A stretch of 22,709 nucleotides of DNA from positions 717-23,425 of IMG/VR virus record IMGVR_UViG_3300033148_002604. One strand, written 5' to 3'. The notes beneath the pieces are model-generated. The model was not told the origin of the DNA. It searched no databases and worked only from the letters and a program-made list of their open reading frames with translations. The DNA is from a virus. A program made the translations under genes and the position numbers. This document shows, piece after piece, positions 1-3,235 of the stretch (position 1 is its first letter; each line of letters begins with the position of its first letter).

Positions 1-184
1 AAATAATTGACGTCTCAATCATAATGTCAATATCATTGCCTGAGAGGTCAAAATCCAGTATCTCACAGGCTACAATAGCATGGCCTATGGTAGCTCGACC
101 GCAGGCAGCAATGATATTGCGTGATTCTGCCCGGGTAAACAGTGTGGTGTCCTCTAATATTTGACCTAATTTTTCAAATGTCAT
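1..184 (-). CDS. Small hypothetical protein, copy 1 of a duplicated gene (3' end cut by window edge)
   Basis: Reading right to left from an ATG at 184-182, 61 codons are open to the window edge. By comparison with the second copy (1646-1831) only the stop codon is missing. The start is supported by an AAGGAGAGG-type ribosome site just upstream. The protein begins MTFEKLGQIL and is mostly helical-looking, with a central RNIIAACGRATIGHAIVA stretch and an acidic, hydrophobic tail (FDLSGNDIDIMIE). It differs from copy 2 at six of 61 residues by eye. No family is recognised and no catalytic motif is visible. It sits at the downstream end of the visible minus-strand small-gene operon. Confidence 0.75.
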   Translation of the reverse strand, partial: MTFEKLGQILEDTTLFTRAESRNIIAACGRATIGHAIVACEILDFDLSGNDIDIMIETSII

Positions 185-223
185 TTACCCTCTCCTTTCG
201 CGCCCTATCTCTCAGGCACATGG

Positions 224-1831: not shown

Positions 1832-2012
1832 TTTCAATCCTCCCTTTTTTGATTTTGTGTTTTGCTGTCAATTTATACCCTGCATTTGGCGTGCCAAAAC
1901 TCTCAAAAAATAAATAAATCGCGCAAGTGTCTGTTTTCAGGCGATTATAAGCCTTACAGTTCAATAAATGAACATCTTATGGCTAAATAGACATATCAAA
2001 ATATTGACTCAA

Positions 2013-2086
2013 AATTGTCATAACAATATCAATAGGTTATAAAAAAAGCATAGCATAAGATATTGATATAATTAATGATGACAATT
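2013..2086. repeat. Inverted repeat of two paired boxes (operator-like)
   Basis: The left arm carries AATTGTCAT (2013-2021) and ATATCAATA (2026-2034). The right arm carries their reverse complements in mirrored order, TATTGATAT (2061-2069) and ATGACAATT (2078-2086). The box spacing differs between arms (4 versus 8 bases) and the arms are separated by about 26 bases, so this looks more like paired protein-binding sites than an RNA hairpin. A further AATTGTCA lies at 2686-2693, before the next gene. Confidence 0.6.
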
Positions 2087-2097
2087 TACGGAAAAGC

Positions 2098-2125
2098 TTG
2101 ACAAAATTTGTCAGTGATATATAAT
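2098..2125 (+). promoter_or_regulatory. Sigma-70-type promoter for the nuclease-Fis gene
   Basis: TTGACA at 2098-2103, a 16-base spacer, and TATAAT at 2120-2125, both exact consensus hexamers. A 13-base palindrome GACAAAATTTGTC (2100-2112) overlaps the -35 and spacer, a usual place for a repressor site. The expected transcript starts near 2132, and a ribosome site AAAAGGAGG precedes the ATG at 2151. Confidence 0.75.
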
Positions 2126-2150
2126 TAGGTATCAAAAGGAGGAAAATATC

Positions 2151-2687
2151 ATGGATATTAAAAAGTCAGGCATAGAGTTTGAGAAAAAGATAAAAAAACT
2201 TTTAAAACATGAAGGATATGAAGTACTTAAAAATGGTTGGCCTGATTATTTAGTAAAGGATAAAGAAGGTATCTTATGGTTCATGGAGATAAAAGCCCTT
2301 CACAGTCATCTTAGGAAAGCACAAAAACAAATGTTAAAGACATTAACTGATGCTGATTTAAATGTGCTGGTAGTTTCCGAAAACAAGCTGTCTGCCCCCC
2401 GGGAATGGATAAAGGCAAAAAATTATACATTAGGTGATATTCAAGATGATAAAATAGAGCCTTCAATCGATAGAATAATAGGATACATTCAAAAAGTAAC
2501 AGATATTTTACCTCAAAAGGCTAAAGGGAAACTTGATCTTGAAGCTATTCTTAATGAGATAGAGACAACAATCCTAAAGGAAAGTTTAATAGAATGTAAA
2601 GGGGATAAACGAATGGCCGCTAAGCTACTAAATATTAGTAGTCGGTCTTTACGTTACAGAATTAATAAATTAGGGATTGAAGGATAA
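2151..2687 (+). CDS. VRR-NUC-like nuclease fused to a Fis-type HTH domain
   Basis: 178 codons with a strong AAAAGGAGG ribosome site. Residues 1-75 look like a PD-(D/E)xK nuclease of the VRR-NUC/Holliday-resolvase-like type: helix with E9/E11, GWPDYL with D32, FMEIKA with E46 and K48, and a helix containing Q58/Q60. The key acidic residues and lysine are all present, so the domain appears catalytically competent. A linker (about 80-125) leads to a C-terminal region (about 130-176) with KGDKRMAAKLLNISSRSLRY, a clear Fis/HTH_8-type DNA-binding motif as found at the end of sigma-54 activators. It has its own consensus promoter with an overlapping palindrome, so autoregulation is plausible. The domain calls rest on motif reading; the role (regulator, recombination nuclease, host takeover) is inference. 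Confidence 0.75.
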   Translation: MDIKKSGIEFEKKIKKLLKHEGYEVLKNGWPDYLVKDKEGILWFMEIKALHSHLRKAQKQMLKTLTDADLNVLVVSENKLSAPREWIKAKNYTLGDIQDDKIEPSIDRIIGYIQKVTDILPQKAKGKLDLEAILNEIETTILKESLIECKGDKRMAAKLLNISSRSLRYRINKLGIEG

Positions 2688-2717: not shown

Positions 2718-2747
2718 TTGACATCCCTGTATTCCCTCTGATACCAT
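2718..2747 (+). promoter_or_regulatory. Putative promoter for the replication-type HTH gene
   Basis: Exact TTGACA at 2718-2723, 18-base spacer, TACCAT (4 of 6) at 2742-2747. The expected start of transcription falls at or just before the ATG at 2756, and no Shine-Dalgarno sequence precedes that ATG. The mRNA would be leaderless or nearly so. Confidence 0.4.
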
Positions 2748-2755
2748 ACTGGGCC

Positions 2756-3235
2756 ATGATATTCAAAATTAAGAAAATTAACCCACCCTATACTCAAATC
2801 CACAACAACATCATCGACAACCCAGGCCTGTCCGGCAAGGCTAAATGGATATTGATATATCTCCTAAGCAAGCCTGCTGACTGGCAAGTGTATGAGCTGG
2901 ATGTTGAAAACCATTGTACCGACGGTCGTGACTCGATCCGCACCGGGATAAATGAGTTAATTAAAGCCGGGTATATCAAGCGTGATAAGCAACGTGATGA
3001 AATAACAGGACAATTTAAAGGGTATGAGTATGAAGTGCATGAACTTCCTATTAAATCAGGTATTTCCACCGAGAACGGATTATCCGACCTCGGGAAATCA
3101 GACATTAGTAATACTAAAAGAACTAAGGACGAAATATCACGAGATAAAGAACTAAACCATTTAGAGAAAAGAAAGACCGAAGAAGAACTCTGGGATGAAA
3201 TGAATAAGACCGGATACGGTATCACTAAGCATTAA
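2756..3235 (+). CDS. Winged-helix replication-type phage protein
   Basis: 159 codons. Residues 1-100 match the pattern of phage replication-initiator-like winged-helix proteins: FKIKKINPPYTQIHNNIIDN, then LSGKAKWILIYLLSKPADW, and a second half with GRDSIRTGINELIKAGYIKR (recognition helix plus wing) followed by a YEYEV strand. The C-terminal 60 residues are polar, low-complexity and highly charged, ending with an ELWDEMNKTGYG patch that could be a protein-interaction tail. In related phages such proteins precede helicase or loader genes or act as DNA-binding replication accessory proteins. Here the next gene is a probable small terminase. No ribosome site is visible, so start choice rests on length and the conserved N-terminus. 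Confidence 0.7.
   Translation: MIFKIKKINPPYTQIHNNIIDNPGLSGKAKWILIYLLSKPADWQVYELDVENHCTDGRDSIRTGINELIKAGYIKRDKQRDEITGQFKGYEYEVHELPIKSGISTENGLSDLGKSDISNTKRTKDEISRDKELNHLEKRKTEEELWDEMNKTGYGITKH

Follow-up and report, generated by a model that had tools for sequence, protein, structure and literature searches.

Results

Architecture of the gene

The question raised by this locus is whether a phage nuclease of the VRR-NUC type has been joined to the DNA-binding domain of a transcriptional regulator and, if so, what such a protein would do in a phage control region. The window (the whole stretch of DNA analysed, 22,709 nt) belongs to a 23.4-kb virus fragment. The gene in question starts with ATG, and its features are given in Table 1. 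The VRR-NUC nuclease and the Fis/HTH_8 tail form a genuine fusion, which is well supported in both sequence and structure. It is a new domain architecture built from known parts, from which we infer the function discussed below.

Table 1. Features of the fusion gene, its upstream region and the following gene (positions in the window)
Feature	Position	Strand	Basis
Divergent intergenic region, 313 bp, A+T-rich (30% GC), between leftward small genes and fusion gene	1838..2150		Sequence, ORF list
Sigma-70-type promoter, TTGACA-16-TATAAT	2098..2125	+	12/12 matches; consensus match only
Perfect 15-bp palindrome TGACAAAATTTGTCA over the -35 element, candidate operator	2099..2113		Sequence; comparable palindrome in 26% of shuffles
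Ribosome-binding site AGGAGG, strong	2137..2142	+	Sequence
VRR-NUC + HTH_8 fusion gene, 178 aa	2151..2687	+	ORF; Pfam/PHROG/NCBIfam; AlphaFold2 model and structure matches
VRR-NUC PD-(D/E)xK domain, residues 4-87 (D32, E46, K48, Q58)	2160..2411	+	4QBN, Z 10.9 over 84 residues; conserved columns; phage VRR-NUC profile, 41 bits
Linker, residues 88-126, low confidence, predicted helix 106-118	2412..2528	+	pLDDT about 35-65
Fis/HTH_8 DNA-binding domain, residues 127-177	2529..2681	+	HTH_8 E 1.4e-6; Fis Z 9.6, NtrC4 Z 9.6; response-regulator tail identity
Replication-initiation/DnaD-like N-terminal domain protein, next gene	2756..3235	+	phrog_428, phrog_4707, phrog_186, E 3e-19 to 5e-14

The Pfam VRR_NUC profile matches residues 12-75 with an E value of 8.6e-4 and 19.8 bits, which is under the curated cut-off of 23.8. 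This cut-off is an annotation convention and not a biological trait. Three other phage VRR-NUC proteins score 22.6 to 23.9, suggesting that it is tight for phage members of the family. PHROG searches match the N-terminal domain to an endonuclease family (3.9e-7) and to a Holliday-junction-resolvase family (3.7e-6). At least 120 phage VRR-NUC loci were recovered with a degenerate DNA pattern centred on the PD...ExK core, and residues 10-79 score 41 bits against a profile built from 80 of these proteins. When the protein is aligned with other phage VRR-NUC proteins, G29, P31, D32, F44, E46, K48 and Q58 fall in columns that are conserved in at least 90% of rows, and the PD, ExK and conserved Gln of the family are thus all present (D32, E46, K48 and Q58). 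In stNUC the Gln of the pair K47-Q57 bonds to the catalytic Lys (PMC4103454). The 10-residue spacing of K48 and Q58 equals that of this pair (PMC4103454), which identifies Q58 and not Q60 as the family glutamine. The preliminary description had listed both glutamines with D32, E46 and K48; all of its residues hold, at near-invariant columns, except Q60. Judged from the alignment the active site looks intact, the helix-1 Glu being one departure: the usual column for this residue in the E-PD-ExK motif holds G7, with E9 and E11 close by. About six residues found ahead of the PD motif in relatives are also absent.

AlphaFold2 was run with 41 aligned sequences and gave a mean pLDDT of 78, with both domains confident and the linker (about residues 80-120) poor; a single-sequence run gave a pLDDT of 48 and the aligned run was used instead. 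The N-terminal part of the model has a helix (3-20), three strands (24-27, 33-36 and 42-48), a second helix (56-67) and a further strand (71-76). The C-terminal part has helices at 130-148, 153-159 and 164-174, and here the HTH is predicted to be intact with pLDDT above 90. Searches with Foldseek and VIA-align found 4QBN as the best structural match to the first half of the protein, which also matches a second VRR-NUC structure (4QBO), archaeal Hjc resolvases and FAN1. The second half matches Fis and NtrC4 (Z about 9.5-9.6), and also NtrC1 and NtrX. Among the listed viral models there was no good match to the whole protein. The preliminary description had made its case depend on structure prediction, and both the PD-(D/E)xK core and the HTH are seen in the model and in the structure matches.

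Closest relatives of the C-terminal tail

The C-terminus had been described as a Fis/HTH_8 motif of the sigma-54 activator type, and this assignment is borne out by the profile match to residues 134-174 (28.4 bits, above the Pfam cut-off of 22) as well as by the structure matches. PDB sequence matches of the tail include the NtrC4 DNA-binding domain. Over about 49 residues the tail is 44-55% identical to most response-regulator tails, and identity to other virus-borne tails is lower (35-43%). In 395 genomes of a deltaproteobacterial phylum, the best tail matches end open frames of ~460-490 aa, a length that fits sigma-54 response regulators, and cover their C-termini. One of these matches, at L261, belongs to a frameshifted regulator that has a receiver and an AAA+ domain and adjoins a pilin-like ORF, suggesting that it is PilR-like. 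By sequence comparison, then, the tail has its nearest relatives in the DNA-binding domains of sigma-54 response regulators of the NtrC/PilR type and not in Fis itself. Fis (1FIA, 3IV5) shares the HTH fold (Z about 9.5 over 51 residues) but stands alone, at about 98 aa, and is only about 20-26% identical to the tail. The suggestion that the protein is a tool to hit host Fis sites is therefore unsupported, and we reject cutting at such sites. A Pfam search of the 178 aa did not find the AAA+ central domain of sigma-54 activators. A PADLOC match was to the HTH of an RtcR-like protein only and does not point to defence.

Rarity of the fusion and similar tails on other nucleases

The preliminary description had proposed a search for the same architecture in phages, and this search indicates that the fusion is rare: among the matches listed, none of the 120 phage VRR-NUC loci carries an HTH_8 tail. 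The VRR-NUC ORFs at L158, L181 and L139 have extra sequence and no HTH_8; two of these phage domains, at L181:3541-4251 (-) and L158:7000-7659 (-), carry long unassigned extensions (more than 100 aa) at the N- or C-terminus. In the deltaproteobacterial phylum, a family search found the tail on none of 14 VRR_NUC proteins, and no VRR-NUC/HTH_8 fusion was found in the 395 genomes, where matches were to the tail only and nearly all in frames of response-regulator size. Searches for direct homologues of the protein came up empty in IMG/VR and in GTDB contigs, both scanned with exact peptide patterns, and in INPHARED phages; a plasmid search gave one weak match, to the HTH only. A WOR-3 phylum (147 genomes) and a spirochaete phylum (247) gave nothing at E 1e-9; the empty scans had no positive control and bound the rarity only loosely. 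In the literature we found nothing that joins the HTH_8/Fis family, a nuclease and a phage.

Tails of this type are, however, present on other nucleases. On viral contigs, L014:3427-3873 (-) encodes a GIY-YIG (MUG113/T5orf172) nuclease of 149 aa that ends in a strong HTH_8 tail, and L054:2552-3088 (+) encodes a 178-aa protein, also with a strong HTH_8 match, whose cysteine-rich N-terminus is endonuclease-VII/HNH-like but below the Pfam cut-off. In a bacterial genome, L295:5342-5839 (+) combines GIY-YIG and HTH_8 in a region that is not obviously prophage, with no ATG near the frame start. Taken together, these three cases suggest that the addition of HTH_8 tails to nucleases recurs, the VRR-NUC version having been seen once. 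Two further HTH_8-tailed proteins on viral contigs (L037 and L044) have no recognised nuclease domain. The L014 fusion lies near a small HTH gene that resembles a terminase small subunit. A relaxed HTH pattern returned, on viral contigs, mostly a repeated protein of another kind: a near-identical ORF of ~110-120 aa with MNRTLDQAAAVLGIGPRKLRARMRELGLLNHAGELIS, weakly HTH_8-like, is present in L015-L036, L038-L043, L045-L052 and L055-L056.

The upstream region and the neighbouring genes

The fusion gene is the first rightward gene of the divergent region. The palindrome on its -35 element reads TGACA-N5-TGTCA. Response regulators of one sulfate reducer mostly bind inverted repeats of 4-6 bp with 3-8 bp spacing (PMC3333781), and NmpR, an NtrC-like regulator, binds GCGCA-N5-TGCGC (PMC11841059). 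The palindrome has the geometry of such sites and is thus a candidate operator, which is suggestive only. The divergent region contains four TTGTCA half-sites. None of 2000 shuffles had that many copies of TTGTCA, but 7% had at least one 6-mer present four times, and a palindrome of similar quality arose in about a quarter. Operator-like sequence is thus present on the promoter, with weak statistical backing. Of the divergent operator region described earlier, the divergent control region stands and the case for an operator is weak.

The gene after the replication-initiator-like one encodes a small HTH protein and precedes that of the large terminase; terminase, portal-type connector, head and tail genes thus lie downstream of the fusion. 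The closest phage relative is the sibling contig L002, whose terminase is 66% identical in the best segment. In its sequenced 7.7 kb L002 keeps the small HTH gene and the terminase but is without the fusion gene and the replication gene, suggesting that the function of the fusion gene is not core. Just upstream of the gene at 2756 there is a second promoter-like site (window 2718-2747; TTGACA-18-TACCAT, with TG before the second hexamer).

Discussion

Comparison with known systems

The fusion protein shares the fold and the PD-ExK-Q residues and spacing of single-domain phage VRR-NUC proteins (4QBN, 4QBO, 4QBL; PF08774), but these are mostly about 80-130 aa and, in the 120 loci sampled, have no DNA-binding tail. 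It shares the HTH_8 fold with the tails of NtrC/PilR-type sigma-54 regulators (2M8G, 3E7L NtrC4; PF02954), but differs from these regulators in being phage-borne, in having a nuclease and in being without a receiver or AAA+ domain. L014 and L054 resemble it in carrying the HTH_8 tail at the C-terminus of a nuclease; their nuclease folds are different and their tails are only 37-43% identical to that of the fusion protein, so separate acquisitions are likely. Fis-type domains dimerise. Prokaryotic members of the VRR-NUC family form dimers and cleave four-way junctions, and the role of the phage members is thought to be in recombination, replication or packaging (PMC4103454). FAN1 has the VRR-NUC core in common with the fusion protein, and is a large monomeric 5'-flap nuclease in which an insertion is proposed to block dimerisation (PMC4103454).

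Possible functions

The most likely reading, which we put forward tentatively, is that the gene encodes a dimeric junction nuclease, made early, which is tethered to DNA and may regulate its own gene. An early phage VRR-NUC nuclease, Holliday-junction-resolvase-like, would carry a captured NtrC/PilR-type DNA-binding domain, and the protein would probably act as a dimer because both types of module dimerise in solved relatives. The nuclease could cut branched DNA from phage replication, recombination or packaging. The tail may tether it to duplex DNA with a preference for short inverted repeats like the one on its own promoter, where binding might cause negative feedback. Early expression is suggested by the position of the gene only. 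This reading is backed by both folds, the conserved D32, E46, K48 and Q58, the replication-initiator-like gene next to it, the 12/12 promoter and the strong ribosome-binding site; against it are the displaced helix-1 Glu, the missing residues before PD, the shuffle statistics and the absence from L002.

Several of the same observations would suit what is mainly a Cro- or CII-like early regulator, whose HTH would occupy the divergent region and whose nuclease fold would be there for dimerisation, cutting rarely or never. The gene is the first rightward one, ahead of the replication initiator, there is a palindrome over its own -35 element, and no other CI/Cro-like gene was recognised adjoining the divergent region. 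However, the retention of all four of D32, E46, K48 and Q58 is unexpected for a mere scaffold and the operator statistics are weak, and we regard such a regulator as unlikely.

It is also rather improbable that the protein is a VRR-NUC junction nuclease of the ordinary kind, to which the tail adds only non-specific DNA affinity, the domain gain being incidental and of no site-specific use. That phage VRR-NUC proteins are mostly single domains (PMC4103454) and that the fusion was found once among the loci listed are consistent with an incidental gain, but the HTH is predicted to be intact with high confidence and tails like it are seen again on other nucleases. With the Cro- or CII-like regulator, this reading is the main rival of the tethered nuclease.

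A free-standing homing-type or selfish endonuclease, with a nuclease and a DNA-binding tail promoting its own spread, would share the modular nuclease-HTH layout, the patchy presence (the gene being absent from L002) and the tail type found on GIY-YIG and endonuclease-VII-like nucleases. We consider it very unlikely: no intron or intein was seen, the gene has a perfect promoter match of its own and lies in a control region, not inside a conserved target gene, and L002 differs over the whole flank and also lacks the neighbouring replication gene, so that no clean empty site is seen. Least probable is a nuclease aimed at the host, which the captured domain would bring to host promoters under an NtrC/PilR-type regulator, there to cut or block them; the tail's identity of about 44-55% with the DNA-binding domains of bacterial response regulators would agree with this, but the position of the gene fits self-regulation equally.

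To return to the tethered junction nuclease, a wider scheme, which we advance as a doubtful one, is that phages repeatedly add NtrC/PilR-type tails to unrelated nuclease folds and so make site-directed nucleases; here the junction nuclease would be steered to the phage control or origin region, cutting there and regulating its own gene. If the tail gives sequence preference, the protein would combine a junction-type nuclease with a naturally occurring targeting domain, and with the GIY-YIG and endonuclease-VII-like cases it would point to one type of DNA-binding tail reused across phage nucleases. The fusion protein is a compact, testable case that may couple DNA processing with transcription control.

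Repeats among the leftward genes

There is a direct repeat at window positions 1-186 and 1648-1833 (89.8% identical over 186 bp), and a small leftward gene is carried in it twice. Another repeat, of about 34 bp, is found at 914-946 and 1615-1648, near gene starts.
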